IMG/VR virus record: IMGVR_UViG_3300035181_002074
Location: 1-64,000 of that record
Origin: a virus
Length of the DNA: 64,000 bases
Reading direction: 5' to 3' (one strand)
Shown here piece by piece: positions 11,494 through 36,677 of this stretch. The translations under genes and the position numbers were made by a program. The notes beneath the pieces were generated by a model that made no database searches, had not been told where the DNA came from, and worked only from the letters and a program-made list of their open reading frames with translations. The number at the start of each line of letters is the position of its first letter. Position 1 is the first letter of the stretch.

Positions 11494-11602
11494 TATCGTA
11501 TTCTTTGCTTTGTTTAGGCAACAGTTCCGGTATTTGATAAATAGCTGGTTCCCATATAACCCACCAGCCACTGTTGTAAATAGTTAGTACCCATCTATTC
11601 AT
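11477..11602 (-). CDS. micro-gene, array I (41 aa)
   Basis: Last gene of array I. The ATG lies in the end of the upstream micro-gene (ATGAATAG, 8-base overlap). N-terminus MNRWVLTIYNSGWWVIW, C-terminus KEYDISYLK. A longer in-frame start up to 11674 exists but would run through most of the upstream gene. It overlaps the 3' end of the plus-strand J gene by 17 bases. Confidence 0.6.
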   Translation of the reverse strand: MNRWVLTIYNSGWWVIWEPAIYQIPELLPKQSKEYDISYLK

Positions 11603-11741
11603 AACGGATATACCAAGTTTTATAATCACCTTTATCAACATGATAAGTTTGTTTTGACCAAGACGTTTGGTCACACAAGATTGTCCAGCCTTCTGGATAA
11701 ATTCTTTTGTTGCATATCACTAAAATATACTTACCCTTCAT
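11595..11741 (-). CDS. micro-gene, array I (48 aa)
   Basis: N-terminal strand MKGKYILVICNKRIYPEGW, polar middle, C-terminal strand KTWYIRYE. Starts within the last codons of the upstream gene, and its own stop lies in the start of the next one. Too short for usual gene callers. Confidence 0.65.
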   Translation of the reverse strand: MKGKYILVICNKRIYPEGWTILCDQTSWSKQTYHVDKGDYKTWYIRYE

Positions 11742-11892
11742 AATCAATATGCCATGCCTTTTTATCTATGTCATCCAATATCAGTTTATCCACATGCCAC
11801 GGTTCACCATCATTTAATAAACACCAGTAATCTTTTTCGGCAATAAGCAGCAGGGAGAATGGCTCATTAAAATTAACATAATGATTAGTCAT
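11731..11892 (-). CDS. micro-gene, array I (53 aa)
   Basis: N-terminus MTNHYVNFNEPFSLLLIAEK, then DYWCLLNDGEPWHVDK, C-terminal strand KAWHIDYEG. Start overlaps the upstream stop as CATGA; the stop lies 11 bases inside the next gene. Confidence 0.65.
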   Translation of the reverse strand: MTNHYVNFNEPFSLLLIAEKDYWCLLNDGEPWHVDKLILDDIDKKAWHIDYEG

Positions 11893-12026
11893 GATAATAC
11901 GATCCTGTAAATTTTTGATTCAATTGATAGTATATGGAGTGTAAGCGGTACGGCCGTAGGCATTATCCTGAACTTCATTCTAAGTGGTATGTTCCATGCA
12001 GCCACGATAAAATATCCGTTAATCAT
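11889..12026 (-). CDS. micro-gene, array I (45 aa)
   Basis: N-terminal strand MINGYFIVAAWNIPLRMKF, C-terminus SKIYRIVLS. The ATGATTAA start overlaps the upstream TAA; the TGA overlaps the next ATG. Confidence 0.6.
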   Translation of the reverse strand: MINGYFIVAAWNIPLRMKFRIMPTAVPLTLHILSIESKIYRIVLS

Positions 12027-12150
12027 ACTCCACACTAATAACTTTCAGTTCGTCCGGTAATGGATGACCCCATATTGATGGAAAACTACCACCTTCCAGC
12101 TCCACGAAAAAATATTCCAAACTCTTGCGGACTATAATAAGGTAAGTCAT
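12019..12150 (-). CDS. micro-gene, array I (43 aa)
   Basis: N-terminus MTYLIIVRKSLEYFFVELEG, C-terminal strand LKVISVEYD followed by TAA that overlaps the next ATG. Start in ATGA overlap with the upstream gene. Confidence 0.65.
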   Translation of the reverse strand: MTYLIIVRKSLEYFFVELEGGSFPSIWGHPLPDELKVISVEYD

Positions 12151-12293
12151 TCATCTATCCAAATAATATATAGTTTATGCTCCTGCTCCAACATCTCTTG
12201 AATCATCCTGTCGTGACTTTTGTATGTCGCGGTAAAATACCCTATGGGGCAGTCAGCATCCGTCACGAAAGCAATGAGGTATCTATTCACCAT
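12147..12293 (-). CDS. micro-gene, array I (48 aa)
   Basis: N-terminus MVNRYLIAFVTDADCPIGYF, a Met/Glu/Gln-rich helix-like middle (MIQEMLEQEH), and C-terminal strand KLYIIWIDE. Confidence 0.65.
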   Translation of the reverse strand: MVNRYLIAFVTDADCPIGYFTATYKSHDRMIQEMLEQEHKLYIIWIDE

Positions 12294-12411
12294 AAATCAT
12301 CCATTCCTTAACTTGCGATGGCGGTAGATGTGTTACGTATGATGGCTCAACTGGCGACCAAACCCACCAAAACCCATCATATCGGGAAGTTAATCCATAT
12401 AATTTACGCAT
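12283..12411 (-). CDS. micro-gene, array I (42 aa)
   Basis: N-terminus MRKLYGLTSRYDGFWWVWSP, C-terminus VKEWMIYGE. An in-frame ATG three codons upstream (12420) is possible; 12411 is preferred because the overlap with the upstream stop is of the size seen throughout the array. Confidence 0.6.
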   Translation of the reverse strand: MRKLYGLTSRYDGFWWVWSPVEPSYVTHLPPSQVKEWMIYGE

Positions 12412-12553
12412 GTTCAACATAAACACTGTATTCCCTGTATTCATTATCTAGCAACGTATTGTCATTAAAACTAAACGATATCTGCGGCGTCTGATCTCTC
12501 CAAATATACCATGTGCCACCATCTACGAATGCAATGGAATAATAGTCAATCAC
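12404..12553 (-). CDS. micro-gene, array I, GTG start (49 aa)
   Basis: GTG start inside the stop of the upstream gene (CAGTGATTG). N-terminal strand IDYYSIAFVDGGTWYIW, C-terminal strand REYSVYVEHA. The in-frame ATG at 12592 would run deep into the upstream gene and would put residues before the family N-terminus. Confidence 0.6.
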   Translation of the reverse strand: MIDYYSIAFVDGGTWYIWRDQTPQISFSFNDNTLLDNEYREYSVYVEHA

Positions 12554-12726
12554 TGTAATGTAACACCTTTGGAATCCCAGCCAGTAAGCCAAGCCTTAGT
12601 CGTTTCTTGGAACCAAGCAGCAGCTTCTTCTTGGGTTTTGAATTGATCTTTACCAGATCGAGCTACGATATTACCCTGACTGATGATTTCCCAAGTACGT
12701 GTAAACTGATCGTATTTGATTTCCAT
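12550..12726 (-). CDS. small protein in array I (58 aa)
   Basis: MEIKYDQFTRTWEIISQGN at the start, then a predicted helix rich in Gln, Glu and Ala (KTQEEAAAWFQETTKAW). It does not have the micro-gene C-terminal strand, so it is a different small protein carried in the chain. AGGAG lies 8 bases before the ATG, one of the few good ribosome sites in the array, and TAATG couples it to the upstream gene. Function unknown. Confidence 0.65.
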   Translation of the reverse strand: MEIKYDQFTRTWEIISQGNIVARSGKDQFKTQEEAAAWFQETTKAWLTGWDSKGVTLQ

Positions 12727-12863
12727 TATGTGTCTCCTGTTTCAATTATAAATTGTCTGACTGAGCTTGTGTAACGTATATCCCGCCAATACTTATCCAC
12801 GGAATGAAATTTAACATATACGTCATAAGTCTGCAAAGTTGGGAAATAGATTAAATAAGTCAC
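12726..12863 (-). CDS. small protein, array I, GTG start (45 aa)
   Basis: GTG overlaps the stop of the upstream gene (CTGTGA). N-terminus TYLIYFPTLQTYDVYVKF resembles the family's paired strands; the C-terminus FIIETGDT encodes the ribosome site of the next gene. Weak family member. Confidence 0.55.
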   Translation of the reverse strand: MTYLIYFPTLQTYDVYVKFHSVDKYWRDIRYTSSVRQFIIETGDT

Positions 12864-13132
12864 AGTTTCTCCACTGGTGAGTCCGTGGTGTAGCCAGTTA
12901 CATATCGGCGTGTGAGATTTTTAGTTGTTTCAAGGTAAATTTCTAAAACCATCTGTCCGCCTGCATCGCTGGGACGAAGGAAAAATGAAGACTTCCGCTC
13001 AACATGTTGTTTGATTAATGCGTGAGTATACGAATTAAAATCCGTTTTCTTTTTGATATCATAGATTCGATTTTCTACATATCTACACTGAGCTTGGAAT
13101 GAGGTAAGTATCATTTGGTTTAATTCTGTCAT
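12860..13132 (-). CDS. hypothetical protein heading array I
   Basis: 90 residues, unknown. N-terminal half is helix-like (MTELNQMILTSFQAQCRYVE), C-terminal half is strand-like (GGQMVLEIYLETTKNLTRRY). First gene of a chain of eleven overlapping genes. The -10 box of its promoter ends 6 bases before the ATG, so the mRNA should begin at or next to the start codon without a leader. Confidence 0.65.
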   Translation of the reverse strand: MTELNQMILTSFQAQCRYVENRIYDIKKKTDFNSYTHALIKQHVERKSSFFLRPSDAGGQMVLEIYLETTKNLTRRYVTGYTTDSPVEKL

Positions 13133-13138
13133 ACAAAT

Positions 13139-13167
13139 ATATTACCATGTTTTCTATTAAATGTCAA
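13139..13167 (-). promoter_or_regulatory. early promoter of array I, leaderless type
   Basis: TTGACA, 17-base spacer ending in TGG, then TAATAT. Six bases separate the -10 box from the ATG at 13132. The -35 box contains the TGA stop of the upstream gene. Confidence 0.6.
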
Positions 13168-13496
13168 GCCGTTTGTCGAGCGTTATAGATTACCATATAT
13201 GCGTCATGGCTAGCGCGTTGTTTCTTAGTCATTGGGTCAAAACCTTTGCTTTGAGCCCAGCCGTATGGCGAAGTAGCCTCACATCCAGCAACGATTTCTT
13301 CAGGAGAGAATCTTTGTAAGCACCACTTAATAAAACGCTTAGCGGTAGCTTTTGGGCTAGCATACTTAAAACGGCCAGCAAATTCAGCGCCAGTAGCTAC
13401 GTTAAGGCTTACCCATACTTCGCTAGAACCATTGAAGTTACCAACTTGTTTTCCATTTACGAAGATTGCATTTTCAACGAAAGTTACTTTATTCAT
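13164..13496 (-). CDS. hypothetical protein
   Basis: 110 residues, not recognised. The N-terminus (MNKVTFVENAIFVNGKQVG) is strand-like with a turn, followed by a basic Ala/Lys helix region (SPKATAKRFIKWCLQRFSPE), suggesting a small nucleic-acid-associated protein, but this is only inference. It has its own promoter (13514-13542) and a GAGGTAT ribosome site. Its stop codon is part of the -35 box for array I. Confidence 0.6.
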   Translation of the reverse strand: MNKVTFVENAIFVNGKQVGNFNGSSEVWVSLNVATGAEFAGRFKYASPKATAKRFIKWCLQRFSPEEIVAGCEATSPYGWAQSKGFDPMTKKQRASHDAYMVIYNARQTA

Positions 13497-13513
13497 TTGG
13501 ATACCTCATAAAT

Positions 13514-13542
13514 AGAATACCCTATAATGAGATAAATGTCAA
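13514..13542 (-). promoter_or_regulatory. early promoter with leader
   Basis: TTGACA-N17-TATTCT followed by ATTTATGAGGTA ahead of the ATG at 13496. The same promoter plus leader occurs at 20454-20482. The -35 box includes the stop of the small gene upstream. Confidence 0.65.
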
Positions 13543-13631
13543 TAAAAAAGATTATGAATATGACAAAGGCTCAGATCCAATACAATCATTATAGCAGTCG
13601 ATATGATAATTAGCACTATAATTGGTGTCAT
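13539..13631 (-). CDS. membrane micro-protein (30 aa)
   Basis: One hydrophobic segment MTPIIVLIIISTAIMIVLDL followed by a short tail LCHIHNLFY. The ATG overlaps the upstream stop (ATGA). Too short to assign. Confidence 0.45.
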   Translation of the reverse strand: MTPIIVLIIISTAIMIVLDLSLCHIHNLFY

Positions 13632-13906
13632 TTGGAGTCTCCCCATATGATTTTATGTGCCGTTGGGCATTTGATTTCCACTTGTTCGCGACGCTTTTCT
13701 TTAGGAGCAGCCTTGCTTCTGTAGCGCTTCATGATTCTAGACACAACTTCTTTATTATTGTTAATCCAAACTTTTTTGGTAAGAGCCACGCATGCACGAC
13801 ATCTACCTGATAGGCCATCTTTATTGCGTTTATAGCCATGGAAGTTCTTTAATGGCTGTGGATTAGGCTGGGCACAGTCTTTGTTTGTACAGGTTTTCAC
13901 GGACAT
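13628..13906 (-). CDS. zinc-ribbon protein resembling HNH endonuclease N-termini
   Basis: 92 residues. N-terminal pairs C-x4-C and C-x2-C around KNFHGYKRNKDGLSGRCRAC match the zinc ribbon at the start of the HNH nuclease encoded at 36102-36677. A basic helix follows (WINNNKEVVSRIMKRYRSKA). The catalytic His-Asn-His part is missing, so it is either a stand-alone DNA-binding protein or a remnant of a homing endonuclease. GAAGGAGAT lies just before the ATG, inside the end of the upstream gene. Confidence 0.65.
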   Translation of the reverse strand: MSVKTCTNKDCAQPNPQPLKNFHGYKRNKDGLSGRCRACVALTKKVWINNNKEVVSRIMKRYRSKAAPKEKRREQVEIKCPTAHKIIWGDSK

Positions 13907-14145
13907 TTTATCTCCTTCGAATATACGTACTCGATAGTAAACACTTTACCATCCAAATCACTAGACCACCCAGCATCGTAGCCATACCATACACGATACT
14001 TGTAATGCATACCTTTGACGCCGTGGATACCGATAGTATTGGGGCGCCATTGGGCATCAGGGGATTGGTAACAGTGCCCAAAGGAATACTTCGGCAATGT
14101 TGGCTCCGGCCATGATACGAACATTAAGGCTATTAATTCTACCAT
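13897..14145 (-). CDS. micro-gene family member, array II (82 aa)
   Basis: Start chosen at the ATG inside the TAG of the upstream gene (ATGGTAG). N-terminus MVELIALMFVSWPEPTLP, Tyr/Trp-rich middle (YKYRVWYGYDAGW), then KVFTIEYVYSKE, which matches the family C-terminal strand. Longer than typical members. Confidence 0.55.
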   Translation of the reverse strand: MVELIALMFVSWPEPTLPKYSFGHCYQSPDAQWRPNTIGIHGVKGMHYKYRVWYGYDAGWSSDLDGKVFTIEYVYSKEIKCP

Positions 14146-14375
14146 TCCACGTCCAGCCATTGGCCACACCCTGAGATAAAAACTCTGAAACCTTTTTTTC
14201 TTAATTCGCGGCTAATCCGCAGCGCATCCCGTGAAGGGTTCCTAAGATAAACTTGTGTATTTGAAAATCCCAGTTTAGCGAACTTGGTTAATTCTCTACT
14301 AGCACCAACGGTAGTAGTGTATCTTGGCGATAAGCTGTCGGCTAATTTGCGTAATTGTTTTGCTGTAACTTTCAT
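14139..14375 (-). CDS. small basic protein of unknown function
   Basis: 78 residues with N-terminal helix MKVTAKQLRKLADSLSPRY and an Arg/Lys-rich C-terminal half (ISRELRKKGFRVFISG). Possibly nucleic-acid binding, by charge only. Its promoter is leaderless: the -10 box ends six bases before the ATG. Confidence 0.6.
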   Translation of the reverse strand: MKVTAKQLRKLADSLSPRYTTTVGASRELTKFAKLGFSNTQVYLRNPSRDALRISRELRKKGFRVFISGCGQWLDVEW

Positions 14376-14381
14376 ATAATC

Positions 14382-14410
14382 AATATAACACTATTATACA
14401 GTTAAGTCAA
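14382..14410 (-). promoter_or_regulatory. early promoter, leaderless type, inside a micro-gene
   Basis: TTGACT-N17-TATATT with TG before the -10 box; ATG at 14375 follows after six bases. The -35 box codes for Val-Asp near the C-terminus (QVDLTV) of the upstream micro-gene. Confidence 0.6.
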
Positions 14411-14513
14411 CCTGAATTAAATAGCGCATATATTCGGGGTCATTGATGTCTTTAGACTCATCGAAAATACCATACAATATGCTTCCGACTTTCACTATGT
14501 GGTAATTATTCAT
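14394..14513 (-). CDS. micro-gene, array II (39 aa)
   Basis: N-terminal strand MNNYHIVKVGSILYGIF, C-terminus YLIQVDLTV. The last codons carry the -35 box of the next promoter, and the stop lies in its spacer. Confidence 0.6.
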   Translation of the reverse strand: MNNYHIVKVGSILYGIFDESKDINDPEYMRYLIQVDLTV

Positions 14514-14628
14514 GCCATACCTCAATATCAATATAATGGGTATATGGCTCATTACATATTAACCAAAAGCTGGAAACCTTAAGCCAACAATCGGTATAGA
14601 CAGCTTTCTCGATTAAGTAATCTTTCAT
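14506..14628 (-). CDS. micro-gene, array II (40 aa)
   Basis: MKDYLIEKAVYTDCWLKVSS, then FWLICNEPYTHYIDIEVWHE. GGAGGAAG precedes the ATG, which overlaps the upstream TGA (GTATGA). A longer in-frame start at 14688 would run into the upstream gene. Confidence 0.65.
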   Translation of the reverse strand: MKDYLIEKAVYTDCWLKVSSFWLICNEPYTHYIDIEVWHE

Positions 14629-14783
14629 ACTTCCTCCATTAATTCCACCGTGAGCCATAAATGACTGCCATTGTCGATAAACACCCATATGCGTGGAGCA
14701 GTCCCGTCAAATAGAGGCTCCCAGTCGCTGGGTGTAGCTATTATGAGTCTATAACTCTTCGATGATAATGCTATATTGTTCAT
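14625..14783 (-). CDS. micro-gene, array II (52 aa)
   Basis: SYRLIIATPSDWEPLFDG is the family N-terminal pattern; the C-terminus is HLWLTVELMEEV, whose codons hold the next ribosome site. It overlaps the upstream gene by 35 bases, more than usual, because no start codon lies closer to that stop. Confidence 0.55.
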   Translation of the reverse strand: MNNIALSSKSYRLIIATPSDWEPLFDGTAPRIWVFIDNGSHLWLTVELMEEV

Positions 14784-14889
14784 AACTGAATTCCTTATCC
14801 GCAGTGAGATCGTCTATATAATATGTACAAATATATATATTGCCTTGTTTATCAAAAGAGTGTACTCGGCTGATGTGATAAGAATTCAT
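14749..14889 (-). CDS. micro-gene, array II (46 aa)
   Basis: MNSYHISRVHSFDKQGNIYI at the start, C-terminal strand EQYSIIIEEL. ATG overlaps the upstream TGA. Confidence 0.55.
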   Translation of the reverse strand: MNSYHISRVHSFDKQGNIYICTYYIDDLTADKEFSYEQYSIIIEEL

Positions 14890-14999
14890 AATGATATCTC
14901 CACATGAAACAGTAACTCATACGTATCTCGGTCGAAAATAATATAATGCCTTATATCCATCCAAGCATCACTGTGATACATGCCGTATGGTTTATACAT
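14886..14999 (-). CDS. micro-gene, array II (37 aa)
   Basis: MYKPYGMYHSDAWMDIRHYI then TYELLFHVEISL. The ATGTATAA start overlaps the upstream TAA. Confidence 0.6.
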   Translation of the reverse strand: MYKPYGMYHSDAWMDIRHYIIFDRDTYELLFHVEISL

Positions 15000-15120
15000 A
15001 GACCACCACGCTAAAGTTATGATAGAATGCGTGGGTAGCGTATATGGTGTAATAGATTTGCTCCGTTTGTCCAAAGAAACCTAGACTGCGCGATGAGTAT
15101 ATTTTATATGGTTTCATCAT
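14992..15120 (-). CDS. micro-gene, array II (42 aa)
   Basis: Two adjacent ATGs; MMKPYKIYSSRSLGFFGQTE at the start, C-terminal strand HNFSVVVYV. Overlaps the upstream gene by 17 bases. Confidence 0.55.
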   Translation of the reverse strand: MMKPYKIYSSRSLGFFGQTEQIYYTIYATHAFYHNFSVVVYV

Positions 15121-15226
15121 TCCAAGGTCTTTCCATGTAGTATTCTTTATCGCCAAGATCATTTTCAATTGACCAGCACTCTTGAATTCCTTCAAACCAG
15201 TGGTACATGTAATAAAGCTTACCCAT
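15104..15226 (-). CDS. micro-gene, array II (40 aa)
   Basis: MGKLYYMYHWFEGIQECWSI at the start. It ends in ERPWNDETI and lacks the usual C-terminal strand. ATGGGTAA start overlaps the upstream TAA. Confidence 0.5.
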   Translation of the reverse strand: MGKLYYMYHWFEGIQECWSIENDLGDKEYYMERPWNDETI

Positions 15227-15341
15227 AAATGAAGTCTACCCAGTAATGTTTATTTTCTCCGCCGATCAGTATAAACCATGGTCTCTGCGCTTGAAAGTCG
15301 TCATCCCATTGAAAATGAGTGCGAATTGTATAATCAGTCAT
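15219..15341 (-). CDS. micro-gene, array II (40 aa)
   Basis: MTDYTIRTHFQWDDDFQAQR, then PWFILIGGENKHYWVDFIYG; C-terminal strand HYWVDFIYG is typical. Confidence 0.6.
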   Translation of the reverse strand: MTDYTIRTHFQWDDDFQAQRPWFILIGGENKHYWVDFIYG

Positions 15342-15453
15342 ATGCTATCCGCCACATGTGCTGACCTATTTCACCTTCATGGATATGGAACCATATTAGA
15401 TCTGCTGCACAGTAAATTCTTACGTGCCTATCCATGAAAGTATCATTCTTCAT
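15334..15453 (-). CDS. micro-gene, array II (39 aa)
   Basis: MKNDTFMDRHVRIYCAADLI at the start and HMWRIAYD at the end. The ATGAAGAATGA start lies within the last codons of the HNH-ClpP gene, so array II is translated directly behind it. The second ATG (MDRHVRIY) is an alternative start. Confidence 0.6.
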   Translation of the reverse strand: MKNDTFMDRHVRIYCAADLIWFHIHEGEIGQHMWRIAYD

Positions 15454-16708
15454 AGATCTTTTTTTTAGGGTTATTACTTATAAAATCCGCTAATTTAAAA
15501 CTGATTATACGATTTGCATCCAAGATCGTATCCTTTAGGCATAGACTTTGCCAAAATGTGGTCGGTTTGCCAGATTTATCTGAGTATATGCCATATAATC
15601 TCTGTCTACTTTGCTTGGATACTTCAGCCCATGCCTCAAATGACTTTGCTTCACCTTCGAATCCTTCTGTGCCGTCATGCAGTACGAAAACGGTATTCGG
15701 AGTTATTTCTCTTATGTCCCCAGCCTGAAAAATGGCTGTTGCGGTGCTAGCCACCATGCCAGTTCCAATTACATGGATTGGACAGGAACTACCCTTTAAT
15801 TTATCGTAAATGCTTAATCCATCCCACCAGTTACCGCCTTCACTCATTATTTTTACAAATATTGTCGCATGCGGATTAATATGTTCCATTATTTCTATGG
15901 CTCGGTTCACATTTGATGCCATTTCATTGTTAATTTCTCCAAAAATAAAAACAGTTCTGGTGTCGATATGATATCCATTAGTATATAATGTATCGAGGGC
16001 AATATTACGTTGCTCCTTAACAGCATGCATAGCTATTAGCATTTCAGATACCGTTAATTTATCTCCTTTAATAGAATTGCAAGAACCACAGCACGGCACT
16101 ACATTGTCTATTTTGTAGCCAATTTTTTTATCTAATATTATCCTATCCAATCCCGATCCCGATGGTGGCAAACTGCCCCCGCAATAAAAACAAGGTTTAC
16201 TTCTGAGAAGAGCAAATTCGGCTTTCGATATGTTCCATGGCATTTTGCGCTCAGAAGCTTGTCCTTTACCTGCATTAAATTGTACAGCTAAAGACGGTTG
16301 TCTTTTTTTAATTGGTCTTTTTTCTTTTGTTTTAACAAAACAAGCCGCACATAATGTGCCGGTATATTCAGCAGCACCAATTCGACCGCATCCCACACAA
16401 TCTTTACCCTTAATCGGATCTTTTATGATTGGCATTAAGGTGTCTAATAGTCCATTCGATACGCAAAATTTATACTTACCAGAGAATTTTTTTTTGAATT
16501 CCGATCGACTGCCGCATTCTTTTATGGCTTTTTTGAGACTATCGGTTGTGTAATCATGTTTAGTGGTCATATGTGCAAACAATTTGTTCCCTAGTTTAAG
16601 CTTGATAATAGCGGAGTATGCGCCGGAAGCCTGCGTTCGCATTTCGTGTCTAGTGGCGTACTTCTTAGATTCTTTGGTTAATGCCTCTTCTGTCCATTTT
16701 TTTTTCAT
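15443..16708 (-). CDS. HNH endonuclease fused to ClpP-type serine protease
   Basis: 421 residues. 1-47 and 52-95 are two copies of a W/Y-T-x-x-x-L ... Y/C-x-x-R-x-E-F/M DNA-binding repeat seen in phage homing nucleases. 104-123 is a zinc ribbon (C104, C107, C120, C123). 171-211 is an HNH-type nuclease core: KPCFYCGG, GLDRI, DNVVPCCGSCN. From 250 to 410 the sequence is a complete ClpP fold: strand RTVFIFGEI, SEGG loop, GTGMVASTATAIFQAGD with Ser321, FVLHDG with His344, LKDTILDA with Asp393. Ser-His and His-Asp spacings (23 and 49) match bacterial ClpP (about 25 and 49). Phage ClpP proteases often mature the prohead. The DNA-binding half may be a mobile endonuclease captured upstream of the protease. 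There is no frameshift or stop between the halves. Confidence 0.75.
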   Translation of the reverse strand: MKKKWTEEALTKESKKYATRHEMRTQASGAYSAIIKLKLGNKLFAHMTTKHDYTTDSLKKAIKECGSRSEFKKKFSGKYKFCVSNGLLDTLMPIIKDPIKGKDCVGCGRIGAAEYTGTLCAACFVKTKEKRPIKKRQPSLAVQFNAGKGQASERKMPWNISKAEFALLRSKPCFYCGGSLPPSGSGLDRIILDKKIGYKIDNVVPCCGSCNSIKGDKLTVSEMLIAMHAVKEQRNIALDTLYTNGYHIDTRTVFIFGEINNEMASNVNRAIEIMEHINPHATIFVKIMSEGGNWWDGLSIYDKLKGSSCPIHVIGTGMVASTATAIFQAGDIREITPNTVFVLHDGTEGFEGEAKSFEAWAEVSKQSRQRLYGIYSDKSGKPTTFWQSLCLKDTILDANRIISFKLADFISNNPKKKIYEE

Positions 16709-16711
16709 AAA

Positions 16712-16906
16712 CTATTCCTTAACCCATCCGTATTCGAGGCACTCTTGTTCATTGATGATGATATTTGTTGATAGTTCACATTCTTTTTTATTAAAATCAT
16801 TATGTTTAACGCATTCTGTCTTGATGATGCGATTGGTTTCATATTTGATACACTTATATTTGTCACAACCAGTCAAAAGTAGCAATGTTAATAGACAGAT
16901 TCTCAT
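16712..16906 (-). CDS. small lipoprotein
   Basis: 64 residues. MRICLLTLLLLTGC is a lipoprotein signal with the lipobox Cys at 14; mature part about 50 residues with three further Cys and many charged residues. It would be anchored in the host envelope. TGGTAATATAATAT before the ATG is an extended -10 element nearly identical to that before the gene at 62035; the leader would be absent or a few bases. The HNH-ClpP gene follows after 3 bases. Confidence 0.65.
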   Translation of the reverse strand: MRICLLTLLLLTGCDKYKCIKYETNRIIKTECVKHNDFNKKECELSTNIIINEQECLEYGWVKE

Positions 16907-16911
16907 ATATT

Positions 16912-16923
16912 ATATTACCACAG
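16912..16923 (-). promoter_or_regulatory. extended -10 promoter element, leaderless type
   Basis: TGTGGTAATAT with five bases to the ATG at 16906. No good -35 box at 17 bases; TGGACT lies at 15 bases. Confidence 0.4.
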
Positions 16924-16926
16924 TTT

Positions 16927-17109
16927 TTACGCAGTCCATATTTTAAATACCACGACCCAAAATGATACAAAAATGATAATTGCCGATAAGGCTATCATGA
17001 TATTAACAGTATCTTGAATCGGAGAACTATCGTTAATTTCTGGCTGTACCCCAGCGTCATCCCACTTAGCTTTACGAAATTCATTCTTTCTTCTAGCTCT
17101 TCTTTTCAT
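16927..17109 (-). CDS. small membrane protein
   Basis: 60 residues: very basic N-terminus (MKRRARRKNEFRKAKW), an acidic linker, then one membrane segment (IALSAIIIFVSFWVVVFKIW) close to the C-terminus, so probably cytoplasmic N-terminus. GAAGGAAAT precedes the ATG at 17109; the more upstream in-frame start at 17154 lacks a ribosome site. Function unknown. Confidence 0.6.
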   Translation of the reverse strand: MKRRARRKNEFRKAKWDDAGVQPEINDSSPIQDTVNIMIALSAIIIFVSFWVVVFKIWTA

Positions 17110-17400
17110 AAATTTCCTTCTTTCAAAACATGTGGGGTGGATCGCGACTTCCACCTCGGATTGTTACCCATGCAGCCTCTACCCTGCACTCAATGCGTTC
17201 AGCTTCTTACACCAACGCCCGATAAGGCTCCGACCTTAAAGATTTTAGGCGTTTCTCTAATGAAGTGTGTTTTCTACAAATAGTACTGGTCACATCACAG
17301 CTTCCAACGCCGCCCACATTCAAAATTTGGCCGTAATTTTAATTCCACGGCTCTACAGAATTCCCCGTCGTCTTTAAAGTCTACGGGTACTACGACTCTT
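17110..17400 (-). ncRNA. possible structured non-coding RNA or long leader
   Basis: About 290 bases without a convincing gene on either strand, the only such gap in the window, and more GC-rich than the arrays. On the minus strand several perfect stems can be drawn: GGTGGA/TCCACC near 17134-17153, TGCAG/CTGCA near 17170-17187, GCGTT/AACGC near 17190-17215 and GCCGT/ACGGC near 17320-17350. No tRNA, tmRNA or RNase P signature was seen. It may be an independent RNA or the long leader of the gene at 17109. Confidence 0.3.
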
Positions 17401-17883
17401 TTAGAAATCTAAACCAATCAACAATGAACCAGTTTTGTTCGTTTGTCCTTGGGCACCTACCGACAATCTGCGGGTAAGTAACCGTTGATATTGTAAACCA
17501 CCTACTAAACCACGACTATTTTCTACGGATACTGTGGTACCATTAGTAGAAGTATCAAGCTTATTGCGTGAACCATATCCACCAACCAAGCTCACACGAT
17601 TCTTATCGTTAACACTAACAGTGCATGAAGTCTTGGTTCTTTGTTCGGCAGTTTTGATAATATATTGCTGTACACGTGGTACAACTTTAAATTTCTCCGC
17701 TGGAACAGTGCTTTCTTTCCCATCAGCTTGACGAATGGTAATCGTCGCACCTTTCAGGTGGTTTGGCACATTGGTGTTTATATCGTAGAAAGAAGTAGCT
17801 TCTTCTGCGCTTGTACTTGAGGTACAGTCTTCGGCTAATGCTGGGGATGCTAACATAACGCTTAATAATAATAGATATTTCAT
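17401..17883 (-). CDS. secreted beta-rich protein, possibly outer-membrane
   Basis: 160 residues. Signal peptide MKYLLLLSVMLASPALA with cleavage after ALA. The mature part begins with a Cys/Ser-rich region; from about residue 95 it alternates polar and hydrophobic residues in 4-5 strands (VSLVGGYGSR, GLVGGLQYQRLL, SVGAQGQ, SLLIGLDF) and ends in Phe, like the sorting signal of outer-membrane barrels. Too few strands for a full barrel unless it oligomerises. The last 30 residues resemble the C-terminus of the gene at 61529-62035. It follows the collagen-like lipoprotein gene after one base and is probably co-expressed with it. Confidence 0.6.
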   Translation of the reverse strand: MKYLLLLSVMLASPALAEDCTSSTSAEEATSFYDINTNVPNHLKGATITIRQADGKESTVPAEKFKVVPRVQQYIIKTAEQRTKTSCTVSVNDKNRVSLVGGYGSRNKLDTSTNGTTVSVENSRGLVGGLQYQRLLTRRLSVGAQGQTNKTGSLLIGLDF

Positions 17884-17884
17884 T

Positions 17885-18610
17885 TTAGTCGTCCTGTTCT
17901 TGGTTATTAGAGCAAGTTAATGTTGGAACTTCAAGCGTTATTGTGCGTACTTGAAATGTACCTGAAGTAGCTGCCGTGATAAGCGATGGAGAATGGTAAG
18001 TCCAGTCAGTTGGACAGCTGTTTCCGTGTATCACATTACTAGTTAACTCATTGTATGGAGCTGAGTTTTTCTTGCAGTAAGCATTAGAATATACTGCTGG
18101 TGTAGGTAGCACTGTGTAATCATTGAACGATACCGATATATTTTGCGTTCCAGTTGTGCAATTAGCGTCTTGACCATTGGTTCCAGCTGCCCCAGTAGCG
18201 CCGGTATTTCCTTTATCGCCCTTATCACCTTTGCTTCCTTCAGCGCCGGTTTGGCCGTCGTATAATCTGGCAGATGAGTCACCACATGTAACAGTTACAT
18301 AATTTGCATGGCATGGTCTATTGATAGAGCACGAATCACCTTGAGGTCCGATTTCACCTTGAGGTCCGATTTCACCTTGTATCCCCTGATCTCCATTTGT
18401 ACCATTGAAAAGCTCAGAATAGCTACCATCAGTACACGAAATCAACGACCCAATTTTTATTTCGCTTTCTCCATATAAATCCGATACAGAGCAAGACGAA
18501 CCGTCAGCTCCGTTGGTACCATTGGTACCATTCACAATCTGCACTACTTCTCGATCTGGGCCGCAACCCACTAACATAATTAAACTAACTAAAATTCCGA
18601 TATTTTTCAT
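17885..18610 (-). CDS. collagen-like lipoprotein
   Basis: 241 residues. Lipoprotein signal MKNIGILVSLIMLVGC, lipobox Cys at 16. The mature chain has collagen-type G-x-y runs in three blocks (NGTNGTNGADG; NGDQGIQGEIGPQGEIGPQG; AEGSKGDKGDKGNTGATGAA) separated by Cys-containing globular parts. Such chains form trimers; with the lipid anchor it would sit on the inner face of the outer membrane or be surface-exposed. A direct nucleotide repeat encodes the two GEIGPQ units. Promoter TTGACG-N17-TACACT at 18629-18657 and AAGGAG before the ATG. Possible role in altering the host surface; this is inference. Confidence 0.75.
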   Translation of the reverse strand: MKNIGILVSLIMLVGCGPDREVVQIVNGTNGTNGADGSSCSVSDLYGESEIKIGSLISCTDGSYSELFNGTNGDQGIQGEIGPQGEIGPQGDSCSINRPCHANYVTVTCGDSSARLYDGQTGAEGSKGDKGDKGNTGATGAAGTNGQDANCTTGTQNISVSFNDYTVLPTPAVYSNAYCKKNSAPYNELTSNVIHGNSCPTDWTYHSPSLITAATSGTFQVRTITLEVPTLTCSNNQEQDD

Positions 18611-18628
18611 TTATTTCTCCTTGTTTTG

Positions 18629-18657
18629 AGTGTATCACTCTTTTTTTGTTTCGTCAA
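18629..18657 (-). promoter_or_regulatory. early promoter inside a micro-gene
   Basis: TTGACG-N17-TACACT with TGA before the -10 box. The -35 box codes for the Val-Asp of the C-terminus (EVDETKKE) of the upstream micro-gene. Confidence 0.6.
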
Positions 18658-18799
18658 CCTCTTTTAAAATTGCTATATTGTAGACGTGTGGGTCGAATAA
18701 CGTCGCTTGAAATGGATATTGGGCTTCTTCACCACCATCATCTATTATGTCATAGCTATTAGGCAGGATTATTATCCCGTAATTTCTAATTGGTGTCAT
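18635..18799 (-). CDS. micro-gene, array III, NIA subfamily (54 aa)
   Basis: N-terminus MTPIRNYGIIILPNSYDIID, motif DDGGEE, C-terminal strand PHVYNIAILKEV. Belongs with the genes at 18982, 19172 and 19341, which share NYGI/NIGI, a D-D/G turn and IYNIA. Carries a promoter in its 3' end. Confidence 0.65.
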   Translation of the reverse strand: MTPIRNYGIIILPNSYDIIDDGGEEAQYPFQATLFDPHVYNIAILKEVDETKKE

Positions 18800-19004
18800 T
18801 TAATTGGGCAATCAAAGCATCGGCGAGCCTTACAGCCATGATCGCCTTGCCTTTAGATTCATCGGCATTATTCGTATTATGTCCACCAGCAATAGCAGGA
18901 ACAACTAATCCTTGCATAATCAACGCAGCAAAATATTCTCTCTTGGTTAGGGCATCGCCCATTTGAGATTCTTGGTGGACTTTATCGTTTGGGTTTGTTT
19001 TCAT
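18786..19004 (-). CDS. small conserved-type phage protein with TKREYFAA motif
   Basis: 72 residues. The segment ALTKREYFAALIMQGLV followed by a C-terminal helix (AIMAVRLADALIAQL) is a motif I recall from many small phage and prophage proteins of unknown function. AGGAGAAAA precedes the ATG. The stop lies 14 bases inside the next micro-gene. Confidence 0.65.
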   Translation of the reverse strand: MKTNPNDKVHQESQMGDALTKREYFAALIMQGLVVPAIAGGHNTNNADESKGKAIMAVRLADALIAQLNDTN

Positions 19005-19179
19005 ATTTTTCTCCTATTGCTATATTGTAAATTTTTATGGATTTTTCGCCTTCTGGTGTATTAGTAAATGCATACGGGGTACTGGGGTTTCGTAACGTTT
19101 TATCGTCCGTTATTGGATAATAATAAGTTTTACTTACAATCATGATACCATAATTAAACAAAACTTTGAATTTAGTCAT
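18982..19179 (-). CDS. micro-gene, array III, NIA subfamily (65 aa)
   Basis: MTKFKVLFNYGIMIVSKTYY at the start, turn PITDDKT, C-terminal strand SIKIYNIAIGEKYE, then a basic tail. The start overlaps the upstream stop. The tail overlaps the following gene's leader by 23 bases. Confidence 0.65.
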   Translation of the reverse strand: MTKFKVLFNYGIMIVSKTYYYPITDDKTLRNPSTPYAFTNTPEGEKSIKIYNIAIGEKYENKPKR

Positions 19180-19354
19180 AAACCGCCAAGTTATATATCA
19201 CATTAAGCTCTGCCGCGATGCTGTCGTATAATAGTTCATCTATATTACTGAAATTTATTTGGACATGGGGATTCATTCCACCGTCATTCACTATATGAAA
19301 ACCTGCAGAGCGGATTGCAACCGCATAATTGAATGTAACTTTACTCTTCGCCAT
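19172..19354 (-). CDS. micro-gene, array III, NIA subfamily (60 aa)
   Basis: MAKSKVTFNYAVAIRSAGFH, turn NDGGMNP, C-terminal strand NVIYNLAVYD. Clearly related to its two neighbours. Confidence 0.65.
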   Translation of the reverse strand: MAKSKVTFNYAVAIRSAGFHIVNDGGMNPHVQINFSNIDELLYDSIAAELNVIYNLAVYD

Positions 19355-19523
19355 TTATTATTACCCAATCCCCTAAGAAGGCGATGTTGTATATCTTTGC
19401 TGCTTTGTTGCTCATAGCCTGTCCAAATGATGTATCAGGATTGATACCGTCATCGGTAACCATAAGGTACGGTACTTCACGTCGATGATACATAATAATC
19501 CCGATGTTGAATACAACCTTCAT
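19341..19523 (-). CDS. micro-gene, array III, NIA subfamily (60 aa)
   Basis: Start at the ATG that overlaps the upstream gene: MKVVFNIGIIMYHRREVPYL, turn TDDGINP, C-terminal strand AAKIYNIAFLGDW. The in-frame start at 19565 would lie far inside the upstream membrane-protein gene. Confidence 0.65.
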   Translation of the reverse strand: MKVVFNIGIIMYHRREVPYLMVTDDGINPDTSFGQAMSNKAAKIYNIAFLGDWVIINGEE

Positions 19524-19687
19524 GCAGTTACCTGAGCCAACCAATACAATGGAGCCCCAATCCAACCAAATAAAGCCATAGACCAGAATTCATCTGATTT
19601 GCCTGCCACGACATAGTAATACATGTAAGTAAAACATGTGAGATAGTATGATAAATATACGGCACTGGCAATTAAAAAGGTCTTCAC
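19520..19687 (-). CDS. small membrane protein, GTG start
   Basis: 55 residues with two membrane segments (TFLIASAVYLSYYLTCF and WSMALFGWIGAPLYWLA). The promoter TTGACA-N17-TACACT places the transcript start about at the GTG at 19687, so translation from a leaderless GTG is proposed; the ATG at 19708 lies upstream of the expected transcript start. Confidence 0.5.
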   Translation of the reverse strand: MKTFLIASAVYLSYYLTCFTYMYYYVVAGKSDEFWSMALFGWIGAPLYWLAQVTA

Positions 19688-19694
19688 TTGGGTT

Positions 19695-19723
19695 AGTGTA
19701 TCATTCATAGACAATAATGTCAA
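19695..19723 (-). promoter_or_regulatory. early promoter, leaderless type, inside a micro-gene
   Basis: TTGACA-N17-TACACT with TGA before the -10 box. The -35 box codes for Val-Asp in the C-terminus QVDIIVYE of the upstream micro-gene. Confidence 0.55.
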
Positions 19724-19856
19724 CCTGTTTTTGAATTGATCTGTGCCGCCCGATATTGTCCAAATCCTCCGACTTAAACCCAGTATAGATTTCCCATTTT
19801 CTACCATATATCGACCGCATCCAAAATACGACTTCTATTCGGTATTTAAACTTCAT
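19701..19856 (-). CDS. micro-gene, array III (51 aa)
   Basis: MKFKYRIEVVFWMRSIYGRK, WEIYTGF, C-terminus KQVDIIVYE. Carries the next promoter in its end. Confidence 0.65.
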   Translation of the reverse strand: MKFKYRIEVVFWMRSIYGRKWEIYTGFKSEDLDNIGRHRSIQKQVDIIVYE

Positions 19857-20020
19857 GGCAATATCCTTATGCTATATACCTTTTGTTCTGTTATTCCTGT
19901 AATCCATTCTGTCAGTGTCGCTATATTACGGGTGAAAATATGGTAGTTACTGTAACGATCCCATCTATACGCCTTTTTGCGAAATACATATATACCATAT
20001 TGGCAAATATTATTATTCAT
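19853..20020 (-). CDS. micro-gene, array III (55 aa)
   Basis: MNNNICQYGIYVFRKKAYRW at the start, C-terminal strand QKVYSIRILP. ATGAATAA overlaps the upstream TAA. Confidence 0.65.
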   Translation of the reverse strand: MNNNICQYGIYVFRKKAYRWDRYSNYHIFTRNIATLTEWITGITEQKVYSIRILP

Positions 20021-20159
20021 AAATCCTTATAAGCCATTCAGCCTTGCAATATGACAATTCACTTAGATTCGCATGTGGTACTTCTGTGCCCCATCGAGCA
20101 AGGTTCCAGCTACCGCCTTTCCAGTTGGTAATTGCAATAGTAACTAAATGGTTATTCAT
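20013..20159 (-). CDS. micro-gene, array III (48 aa)
   Basis: MNNHLVTIAITNWKGGSWNL at the start, C-terminal strand AEWLIRIYE. Three bases separate it from the tiny gene upstream. Confidence 0.65.
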   Translation of the reverse strand: MNNHLVTIAITNWKGGSWNLARWGTEVPHANLSELSYCKAEWLIRIYE

Positions 20160-20162
20160 ATG

Positions 20163-20219
20163 TTATTCGTAATGGTATGTTGGTCGAATAGAAATAGCAT
20201 AACGGTATAAAGGTTCCAT
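20163..20219 (-). CDS. candidate 18-residue micro-gene
   Basis: MEPLYRYAISIRPTYHYE. The ATG shares a base with the upstream stop (TAATG). It has the family's YRYAISI start and a YE end without a middle, so it may be a deleted member. Confidence 0.35.
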   Translation of the reverse strand: MEPLYRYAISIRPTYHYE

Positions 20220-20437
20220 TATTCAAAATTCACGGTTAGGTAGTCATTGTATCCATTAGCAACCATTTCCTTAGCAGTAGCCAAGGCAGCTTTACCAGCT
20301 GGGGTGATCATATTCATTTCTTCCAACCATTGGGTCTCAGGTGTAACCAATCTCAAGTGCCCACGGCGTGGAGCAGATAATTCAGGGTTATTGTTAACGA
20401 TCAAAGTAAATTTTGGGGCTGGATTAGTTTGTTTCAT
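20219..20437 (-). CDS. small protein of unknown function
   Basis: 72 residues: MKQTNPAPKFTLIVNNNPEL, a basic loop (APRRGHLRLV) and a C-terminal helix (AGKAALATAKEMVANGY). Start chosen behind the promoter 20454-20482 and the GAGGTA ribosome site; the in-frame ATGs upstream lie in or before the promoter. It uses the same promoter-leader as the gene at 13496, so the two are probably co-regulated. Confidence 0.6.
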   Translation of the reverse strand: MKQTNPAPKFTLIVNNNPELSAPRRGHLRLVTPETQWLEEMNMITPAGKAALATAKEMVANGYNDYLTVNFE

Positions 20438-20453
20438 AGTGTACCTCATAAAT

Positions 20454-20482
20454 AGAATATCATCCTTTATCCGAAATGTCAA
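20454..20482 (-). promoter_or_regulatory. early promoter with leader
   Basis: TTGACA-N17-TATTCT followed by ATTTATGAGGTA, identical in layout to 13514-13542. Lies in the 3' end of the upstream micro-gene (VDISDKG). Confidence 0.65.
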
Positions 20483-20660
20483 CATAAAAATTATATATTT
20501 TTGCTACCATGCTTTGAATAACCACATGCTTGTCGATTCGCGGGTGATATGGATGAGCTGAAACCCAATCCCCTATTAGATAGGTGCCGCTACGCGACCC
20601 AACATGACGTGCGTATCGTTTATTGTGCAAACTTATTTTATACCGCTGCGTTACTTTCAT
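20460..20660 (-). CDS. micro-gene, array III (66 aa)
   Basis: MKVTQRYKISLHNKRYARHV, LIGDWVSAHPY, C-terminal strand AKIYNFYVDISDKG. The three-base gap to the upstream gene is filled by CCC. Confidence 0.65.
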   Translation of the reverse strand: MKVTQRYKISLHNKRYARHVGSRSGTYLIGDWVSAHPYHPRIDKHVVIQSMVAKIYNFYVDISDKG

Positions 20661-20663
20661 GGG

Positions 20664-20819
20664 TTAAAGCTCCACCGAGATTCTGTAATACTTAATAAGG
20701 GACATATCTTCTACATCAGCTCCTTTAGCCTCTATATCGAACACCGATTTCCAGCTATCGATCATATACGTAAACCGTTGAATTTTAATGCCGTAGCGCT
20801 GTGTGGTATAAAATATCAT
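20664..20819 (-). CDS. micro-gene, array III (51 aa)
   Basis: MIFYTTQRYGIKIQRFTYMI at the start, C-terminal strand IKYYRISVEL. ATGA overlap with the upstream gene. Confidence 0.65.
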   Translation of the reverse strand: MIFYTTQRYGIKIQRFTYMIDSWKSVFDIEAKGADVEDMSLIKYYRISVEL

Positions 20820-21031
20820 TTCGTATCCGTGGTGCAAGCGTCGTCCATAGACGTACTGTTACCTGTAATAGTGTCCGTTACACTATAAGCATACTTACAG
20901 CCATTCACGAAACCGTTGGAACTACCTTTATGGTAAGCACCCCACATTAATCCACCGGTTAAGGCAGCGTCAAGTAAGCCAAGGGTTAAGAAGATATAAA
21001 AGCCTTTTTTGGTAAGAATTGGGTGGTTCAT
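20816..21031 (-). CDS. small membrane protein
   Basis: 71 residues with one hydrophobic segment (GFYIFLTLGLLDAALTGGLM) and a polar, Cys-containing C-terminus (two Cys, Ser/Thr/Asp-rich), likely in the periplasm. It heads array III. Its promoter leaves six bases between -10 box and ATG, so the mRNA is probably leaderless. Confidence 0.6.
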   Translation of the reverse strand: MNHPILTKKGFYIFLTLGLLDAALTGGLMWGAYHKGSSNGFVNGCKYAYSVTDTITGNSTSMDDACTTDTK

Positions 21032-21037
21032 GTAAAT

Positions 21038-21066
21038 AGCTTATCACGGTTATTCCCAGAAGTCAA
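21038..21066 (-). promoter_or_regulatory. early promoter, leaderless type
   Basis: TTGACT-N17-TAAGCT with TGA before the -10 box. Diverges from the plus-strand gene at 21105. Confidence 0.6.
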
Positions 21067-21104
21067 CTAGTTTTTATGGTATTATCAATTGGAGAACAAA
21101 TTTT

Positions 21105-21341
21105 ATGCAATCAACTGTAACTTTCACTGCTTATGCCCCAGATGGTACCGTAACAGCTACTAAGACCACTCGCCATGCCAATGGTTTTCGTTTAGATACC
21201 TATGCGAACAATGAATTCCCTTATGATAAGGTAGGCATGCAATACGCCGACAATAACGATCTGACAGCCGTGGTCAAGAATGCTGAAGGTAGAGTTATCG
21301 CCACATTCCTTCAGATCAAAGACGCCCCAGACGCCGAATAA
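21105..21341 (+). CDS. small protein of unknown function
   Basis: 78 residues, strand-rich with Thr-rich start (MQSTVTFTAYAPDGTVTATK) and acidic end. No signal peptide or membrane segment. Not recognised. A TTGGAG site lies 11 bases before the ATG, and TGGTATTAT in front could be an extended -10 promoter. It lies alone between the minus-strand array III and the late block. Confidence 0.55.
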   Translation: MQSTVTFTAYAPDGTVTATKTTRHANGFRLDTYANNEFPYDKVGMQYADNNDLTAVVKNAEGRVIATFLQIKDAPDAE

Positions 21342-21342
21342 G

Positions 21343-21352
21343 CCTAATATTT
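21343..21352 (+). promoter_or_regulatory. late promoter-like motif CCTAATATTT
   Basis: Just after the stop of the small gene and 74 bases before the start of the tail gene at 21426. Confidence 0.5.
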
Positions 21353-21391
21353 CCGGTACAGCCCACTTGCAACTCCTCTACTCTACGGAGC

Positions 21392-21445
21392 ATGAATATG
21401 TGGTTTTCTTTTTATTGGGATATCAATGGATTTCAAAAACACTAA
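21392..21445 (+). CDS. possible leader mini-ORF (17 aa)
   Basis: MNMWFSFYWDINGFQKH, preceded by CGGAG. It overlaps the start of the tail gene by 20 bases in another frame. The tail gene has no good ribosome site of its own, so coupling through this mini-ORF is possible. Confidence 0.3.
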   Translation: MNMWFSFYWDINGFQKH

Positions 21446-35452: not shown

Positions 35453-36100
35453 ATGGCAACCACCAAACAAGACATTATCATTATTGGTAAGGGGGCGATG
35501 AACTCAAATGCATCGTCTGCCCAGATATTTGCCAGCAAAAGCGCTGTCAGTTTTTGGGATACCGCAATTACTTACAACATTGAAACATGTGTTGAATATT
35601 CAGGTAACATCTGGAGATCATTAACTAATTCAAACATAGCTAACAATCCAGCTTCTTCCCCAACCCAATGGGAATTAATCCTAAAAAACACCAAAGACGG
35701 TGATGCCTGTTTCGTTATCAATGGGGCATCTTCTGATCTAATGATGCGCGTCAATTCAATCTGGGAGACTTTGGGCAATAAACCTTACATCATTAGCCTA
35801 AACGATAACCAAGTTTCGCCTACTTCCGCTTTTACTTATTTGGGCACAGCATTCCCATATGCCCAAATCGAGCTAAGAATCAGACGCAATAACTCTTATT
35901 CTTCAGCGTTTAAGAAGACTTACGAGGTTTTAAATGATGGAACTACTGATTTACAATTTTCTGCTGACGGGGTTAGCATTGGTGCTGATACTGGGGTGGT
36001 CATAACCCCTTCAATTACCGCTGGAACGGTATCTTTTGATTACACCAGCACTAACTTATCACAAGCAATTTCACTCGAATATACATTGCGTGGGTTTTAA
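35453..36100 (+). CDS. tail-fibre accessory protein with carbohydrate-binding-like module
   Basis: 215 residues. About 28-75 form a carbohydrate-binding-like module of the CBM5/12 type: SFWDTAITYNIETCVEYSG, IWRSLTNSN and a closing SPTQWEL with the conserved aromatic positions. The C-terminal 80 residues are strand-rich and end SLEYTLRGF. It opens the fibre block. The HNH gene starts two bases after its stop. Confidence 0.6.
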   Translation: MATTKQDIIIIGKGAMNSNASSAQIFASKSAVSFWDTAITYNIETCVEYSGNIWRSLTNSNIANNPASSPTQWELILKNTKDGDACFVINGASSDLMMRVNSIWETLGNKPYIISLNDNQVSPTSAFTYLGTAFPYAQIELRIRRNNSYSSAFKKTYEVLNDGTTDLQFSADGVSIGADTGVVITPSITAGTVSFDYTSTNLSQAISLEYTLRGF

Positions 36101-36101
36101 T

Positions 36102-36677
36102 ATGAAACAATGTAATACTTGCAATTTAACTAAAAACCTAGATTCTTTTCATAAAAATAAGAATTGCCTTGACGGTCGTCAATATAAGTGTAAACTATGC
36201 GTCAATACATATCTGAAAGCGTATTATTCCCAAAACAAGGAACAAGTAAAAGAAAAAGTTAATAATTACCGTCAAAATAACCCCACTAAGATTTCGGCAA
36301 GGAAAAAGTTATATCGTCAAAACAATATGCAAAAAGTAAAATCTGGTTTGCATAATTGGTATATGAATAATAAATCGAAATCTGCCGAAACTACAAAAGC
36401 ATATAACAAGGCGCATCCAGCACAGGCTTTGGCGCGATGTAATAAAAGACGAGCATCTAGGCTAAATGCTATACCTAGATGGCTAACCAAAGAAGATTTA
36501 TTAAAAATTAAGGAATTTTACATAGAGGCCAAACGACTAGAGTTATTGACTGGGGGTAAATACCATGTAGATCATATTATCCCACTTCAAGGTGAGGCGG
36601 TTCGTGGGCTACATGTACCTTGGAATTTACAAGTTATTCCTGCCTACCAAAATATAATAAAAGGGAACAAGATTTAA
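36102..36677 (+). CDS. HNH homing-type endonuclease
   Basis: 191 residues. Zinc ribbon at the start (MKQCNTCNLTKNLDSFHKNK ... CKLC), a long basic helical linker (residues about 40-125), and an HNH core near 165-190: YHVDHIIPLQGEAVRGLHV and WNLQVIPAYQNIIKGNKI with the His-Asp, Asn and final Asn positions. Free-standing nucleases of this type cut fibre or intergenic loci of related phages. It lies between two fibre genes, two bases after one stop and overlapping the next start (TAATG), with more A-rich codon use than its neighbours, consistent with insertion. The longer frame from 36036 would overlap the upstream gene; 36102 is chosen. Confidence 0.8.
   Translation: MKQCNTCNLTKNLDSFHKNKNCLDGRQYKCKLCVNTYLKAYYSQNKEQVKEKVNNYRQNNPTKISARKKLYRQNNMQKVKSGLHNWYMNNKSKSAETTKAYNKAHPAQALARCNKRRASRLNAIPRWLTKEDLLKIKEFYIEAKRLELLTGGKYHVDHIIPLQGEAVRGLHVPWNLQVIPAYQNIIKGNKI

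Follow-up and report, generated by a model that had tools for sequence, protein, structure and literature searches.

A zinc ribbon/HNH domain joined in frame to a ClpP-type peptidase in large phages related to Myxococcus phage Mx1

ClpP is usually addressed to its substrates by an AAA+ unfoldase. The locus described here raises two questions: whether a ClpP peptidase has truly become joined to a homing-type nuclease domain, and what such a protein would do. The window is a 64,000-bp stretch, positions 1 to 64,000 of a 160,612-bp virus record (IMGVR_UViG_3300035181_002074; G000). Genes for terminase, portal, capsid and tail mark the record as that of a tailed phage. On the minus strand of the window, positions 15443-16708 hold a single frame with an ATG start that encodes 421 aa, stop codon included in the coordinates; the plus strand across the same positions is full of stops.

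Read from its N terminus, and thus from high to low coordinates on the minus strand, the protein opens with two repeats (residues 1-97; 16418-16708) of a kind that stands beside GIY-YIG domains in Vibrio phages and presumably binds DNA. A zinc ribbon (residues 104-123; 16340-16399) follows, whose four cysteines (C104, C107, C120 and C123) are invariant in the three fused proteins discussed below. Next come an HNH core placed by residue comparison (residues 173-217; 16058-16192; CFYCGG...LDR...NVVPCC..C) and a bridging helix in a low-confidence model (residues 220-244; 15977-16051). The ClpP protease domain (residues 248-411; 15476-15967) was recognized by Pfam match, model and Foldseek, and alignment places the codons of its catalytic Ser321, His344 and Asp393 at 15746-15748, 15677-15679 and 15530-15532, respectively. 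Profile strength differs along the chain: Pfam CLP_protease matches residues 248-411 with an E value of 5.2e-24, Pfam HNH_5 matches residues 173-218 weakly and below its cut-off (E 0.0039), and the Pfam zinc ribbon match at residues 102-127 has an E value of 0.11. PHROG endonuclease VII and HNH families match the protein at 5e-11 and 5e-9. Residues 1-97 resemble repeats in protein 5 of Vibrio phage PVA23 (E 2e-12), a protein that we take to carry a GIY-YIG motif as well. An earlier note, made from the sequence alone, had proposed this order of domains and these triad positions; profile matches, alignment and homologues confirm the former, and the Ser-His-Asp triad lies where claimed and is invariant in all six aligned proteins.

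The same architecture, which the earlier note had suggested searching for, recurs in two further large phages that belong to the same group. A 155-kb IMG/VR phage contig (G001) encodes zinc ribbon, HNH and ClpP in one frame of 328 aa, with 57% identity over residues 100-408, and a 154.8-kb contig (G006), located by ClpP pattern search, encodes a fused protein of 363 aa with 49% identity over residues 98-408. Contig G002 encodes the same fused protein as G001, and both were counted as one. Only three distinct fused proteins are known, and the two N-terminal repeats occur in the window's copy alone. In all three, 111 residues separate the last HNH cysteine from the catalytic Ser, 23 the Ser from the His and 49 the His from the Asp. 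The HNH region (residues 169-236) is 66-68% identical in every pair versus 50-66% for ClpP, which suggests that the HNH part is under constraint. When 80 kb of G001 was searched with the 192 frames of G000, 28 were matched, and the fusion showed the highest identity (57.5%, compared with 52.5% for capsid and 48.9% for portal). Conservation of the zinc ribbon-HNH-ClpP unit in two other phages excludes chance, and its occurrence in phages this distant also excludes a stop codon lost to sequencing error, the refutation foreseen by the earlier note. The architecture is well supported, and by these comparisons what these large, Mx1-like phages encode is a genuine fusion of a homing-type zinc ribbon/HNH with a phage ClpP peptidase.

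Recovery of fused relatives depended on the query. Among IMG/VR viral contigs they surfaced with the ClpP half and a ClpP pattern, and were missed with the full fusion protein or its N-terminal half alone. GenBank phage records yielded 366 matching the window's protein and 214 matching the G001 protein, none with one place covering 80% of the query, and in none of 139 plasmids was the fusion covered at one place. Bacterial genome contigs gave no relative with poor automatic patterns and no stretches with another pattern, a weak test of absence. Literature searches listed no title on an HNH-ClpP fusion, and those aimed at phage Mx1 returned no papers.

Searches with terminase, capsid and portal over seven records matched five, namely G001, G003, G004, G006 and Myxococcus phage Mx1; G002 and G005 gave no match to any of the three. 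The terminase gene of G001 (103798-106087) lies in two frames about 500 bp apart, as an intron, an inserted endonuclease or a frameshift might produce, and the terminase match in G006 carries two TAA codons. Outside the window, G000 also encodes what reads by sequence as a GroEL-like chaperonin (84257-86026), with 37% identity to its G001 homologue. Free-standing ClpP of related type, whose existence in relatives the earlier note had asked about, is indeed encoded by the isolate Mx1 and by G003 and G004.

A 16-row ClpP tree unites the three fused domains in a single clade (97/94; 95/93 without two long rows), which is most simply explained if the fusion arose once. Relationships within that clade conflict with those of the phages. 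The core-gene tree places G000 with G006 and G003 (100/100) and rejects a G000+G001 clade (p-AU 6e-7), whereas the ClpP tree places G000 with G001 (99/97) and rejects G000+G006 (p-AU 0.009); these clade tests were chosen after identities had been seen. The HNH tree, in which no branch is starred, tends towards G001+G006 (93/89), at odds with the ClpP tree, and the conflict with the core genes thus rests on ClpP.

The surroundings of the gene differ as well. In G000 it lies within an accessory island of 9,932 bp (11494-21425), mostly of minus-strand genes, between two tail genes. Measured between matches to these flanking genes, the gap is about 30 bp in G001 and 53 bp in Mx1, and the same junction in G006 holds 12.1 kb of unrelated genes; nearly empty in two phages and differently filled in a third, it looks like a hotspot of gene acquisition. 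The G001 fusion shares 4 bp with the gene upstream of it, within a cluster that includes SSB and RecA-like homologues. In G006 it lies between a DnaQ-like gene, by our own reading, and a run of genes for an 85-aa protein, a 96-aa protein, a second ClpP and structural proteins. In Mx1 the free ClpP gene lies downstream of SSB and RecA and has a 4-bp overlap with a primase-helicase gene. From the different contexts and the conflict between ClpP and core-gene trees, we read the fusion gene, or part of it, as having moved between lineages, the patchy and mobile behavior of a homing endonuclease. The earlier proposal that a homing endonuclease landed just before clpP therefore stands in part: a homing-type HNH is joined in front of clpP, but a recent accident is unsupported, because the join is common to phages whose capsid proteins are only 54-66% identical.

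The peptidase half has both the triad and the fold of ClpP, as indicated by Pfam, alignment, monomer model and Foldseek. AlphaFold models of six sequences gave ClpP blocks mostly at pLDDT 84-95 and HNH parts mostly at 38-74, and Foldseek with the modelled ClpP part returned ClpP structures with TM scores, normalised by target, of 0.79-0.88 among the 50 matches listed. Its best PDB sequence matches are Listeria ClpP, presumably ClpP1. Features of ATP-dependent ClpP are missing. The NCBIfam ClpP model TIGR00493 scored 42.9 bits against a cut-off of 308.6, and by alignment the fused proteins have no canonical N-terminal axial loops: the domain begins at the first core strand, about 30 residues of axial loops and first helix are gone, and the HNH stands in their place. 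ClpP H-sites and N-terminal loops are among the features described in PMC9035409, and a passage of PMC7112951 shows that the IGF side chains of ClpX pack into hydrophobic clefts of ClpP. This ClpX-docking face is where an N-terminal HNH would lie. Alignment positions 48, 62, 82, 112 and 114, which we assign to the ClpX/ADEP pocket, carry only polar or charged residues or Gly in the three fused proteins (E/D/E, K/K/K, G/S/N, E/E/Q and T/T/T) versus L, Y/F, F/H/Y, Y/F/A and L in four canonical ClpP rows; position 90, likewise assigned to the pocket, is Ile in all three. Free relatives and head proteases are likewise mostly polar at the five positions, and pocket polarity is thus a trait of the wider group, not a consequence of fusion.

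Whether the HNH part cuts or binds bears directly on function. Alignment to solved HNH nucleases (E 0.0097) puts Arg189 at the position of the general-base His. All three fused proteins have Arg there and keep the D-R of the DR-type core, and one of the three, that of G000, keeps the metal-ligand Asn, which is Ser in G001 and G006. Free-standing HNH relatives also carry Arg (7/7), so Arg alone does not show inactivity; all seven keep the Asn and lack a 2-residue insertion that the fused proteins share in the HNH loop. With Asn changed to Ser, nuclease activity of the G001 and G006 copies appears doubtful. That the core is so strongly conserved suggests that it still has a function, of which binding is the simplest. 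A defence-system reading was rejected, as the HNH part gave only weak PADLOC matches, to PDC-M01B and PtuB (E 3e-4 to 0.0095). The HNH part of the G001 protein also matches PHROG families for the Srd anti-sigma factor and a decoy of host sigma70 (E 3e-4 and 6e-4), a hint that these proteins may share an HNH-like domain. Elsewhere in the window, an HNH-type gene by our own reading (36036-36677) overlaps the start of a predicted 1,011-aa tail frame (36620-39655).

Our best reading, which we favor tentatively, is that the protein is a DNA-tethered phage peptidase independent of Clp ATPases, in which a former nuclease domain mainly binds. The ClpP part would assemble into rings able to cleave peptides, or proteins in a loosely folded state, with no need of a Clp ATPase. 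The HNH/zinc ribbon would occupy the axial face of each ring, the place where ClpX docks, and serve chiefly as a nucleic-acid tether, and a protease so anchored on DNA could act on proteins of host or phage wherever the phage genome is being replicated or transcribed. We count in favor the same unit in three phages, the identical HNH-to-triad spacing, the constrained HNH and the invariant triad. The polar pocket, the missing axial segment, Arg in all three copies and Ser in two, and a separate prohead-protease homologue point the same way, as do the overlap of the Mx1 free ClpP with primase-helicase and the SSB-RecA cluster around the G001 fusion. Counted against it are the poor modelling of the HNH part (mean pLDDT 53 in a separate model of residues 98-245), the Arg of free-standing HNHs, the Asn kept in the window's copy, the polar pocket of free relatives and head proteases, and a sample of three distinct fused proteins. 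A bolder form, possible but less secure, would make a retired homing endonuclease the targeting arm: with the HNH/zinc ribbon crowning the mouth of the ClpP ring in place of the face to which ClpX docks, an ATP-independent degradation chamber would be kept on DNA itself or on machinery bound to it, such as RNA polymerase, the replisome or a defence nuclease.

The main rival of a DNA-tethered peptidase, in our view unlikely, is that the HNH is still active as a homing-type endonuclease and has clpP as its cargo. It would cut DNA and spread the gene, and clpP would travel with it because joining ties the element to a gene from which the phage benefits. The three settings, an island, an SSB-RecA cluster and a DnaQ/structural operon, are what such an element might leave, as is the conflict between ClpP and core-gene trees, and the window's copy has in addition its N-terminal repeats, of a kind seen next to GIY-YIG domains. 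Against an active element stand the change of the metal-ligand Asn to Ser in two of three copies and the 2-residue loop insertion. No target or intron site was identified, and the HNH tree, with no starred branch and its lean to G001+G006, does not follow the ClpP tree.

G000 (118733-119380) and G006 each encode a second free ClpP, 47% identical to one another and in the same structural neighborhood; that of G006 lies downstream of the fusion in the same gene run. The G000 gene lies downstream of genes for a MoxR-type ATPase (116429-117508) and a VWA/metallopeptidase protein (114813-115973). These second proteins, and the Listeria ClpP1 matches noted above, would suit a mixed ring of fused subunit and free second ClpP, modelled on the ClpP1/ClpP2 mixed rings of Listeria, in which the HNH caps one end and the second ClpP takes the ATPase. 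We think this improbable: docking positions of the second ClpP are only partly hydrophobic, and the whole G001 record holds, besides the fusion, only a ClpP-like protein with an apparent signal peptide (95120-95617; L080 1168-2154).

Slightly less probable still is a polyprotein that is separated, through self-cleavage or cleavage by the host, into an HNH protein and a free-standing ClpP. Relatives do use free ClpP, and the stretch joining the two domains is variable in sequence, but the HNH-to-triad spacing is the same in all three proteins, a continuous helix is predicted across the joint (residues 220-244, with low confidence at its start) and no known cleavage site was noticed. Self-cleavage near residues 230-245, raised by the earlier note, is thus without support from spacing or model. 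An internal start giving a separate ClpP was also considered and rejected. Start codons led by a ribosome-binding site are found at codons 263 and 396 in G000, nowhere in G001, and at codons 14, 158, 238 and 275 in G006; no such codon is shared between the genes, and in all three the junction itself is free of them.

A head-maturation protease with a DNA-binding arm, another option of the earlier note, is very improbable. The best PHROG matches of the fused ClpP are ClpP-type head maturation proteases, but the NCBIfam head maturation model NF045542 scored 74.3 bits against a cut-off of 120, and the gene lies in the island between tail genes, not beside portal or capsid. Between those two genes, G000 encodes at 98220-100199 a protein with 38% identity over 311 aligned columns to the annotated putative prohead protease of Mx1; it takes its name from that annotation, being recognized by Pfam and PHROGs only in a ParB-like stretch. 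Because this separate homologue exists, the fusion is probably not the head protease, and on gene position, cut-off and homologue we rejected that role. A sequencing or assembly error that fused two genes has a negligible chance of being the explanation, as the same join occurs in independent contigs of two other phages and, although the window's copy rests on a single contig, no support for an artefact was found.

If the DNA-tethered reading is true, a compartmental protease would here be aimed in a different manner, through a domain of nucleic-acid-binding type in place of the docking face, and a homing-type nuclease domain would have been recruited as a targeting arm; in the bolder form the result would be a DNA-addressed compartmental protease. 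A jumbo-phage survey (PMC7824862), in its passage on non-capsid phage ClpPs, could only suggest that they act against host proteins; the fusion offers a direct test of how phages use them.

Among known systems, the closest is the free ClpP of Mx1 (WNM70285.1), from the same phage group by terminase, portal and capsid, which has 32% identity and no axial loops; unlike the fusion, it starts directly at the ClpP core and has no HNH/zinc ribbon. ATP-dependent ClpP (TIGR00493; Listeria and E. coli structures) shares fold and catalytic triad, but the fusion lacks the N-terminal axial segment and has a polar docking pocket and an N-terminal HNH instead. ClpP-related head maturation proteases (NF045542, phrog_94) show domain similarity and are set apart by score, neighborhood and the separate prohead-protease homologue. 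The ClpP-like prohead protease/major capsid fusion (NF045540) also has its ClpP domain in a fusion, but with a capsid protein as partner and no HNH. DR-type phage HNH endonucleases (phrog_1035, phrog_3118; HNH_5) have the zinc ribbon and the LDR...NVVPCC..C core, whereas the fused set has the 2-residue insertion, Asn changed to Ser in two of three and a protease partner. HNH-Rnl2 fusions of jumbo phages, as they appear in part of PMC7824862, likewise join an N-terminal HNH to another phage enzyme, in that case an RNA ligase rather than a protease.
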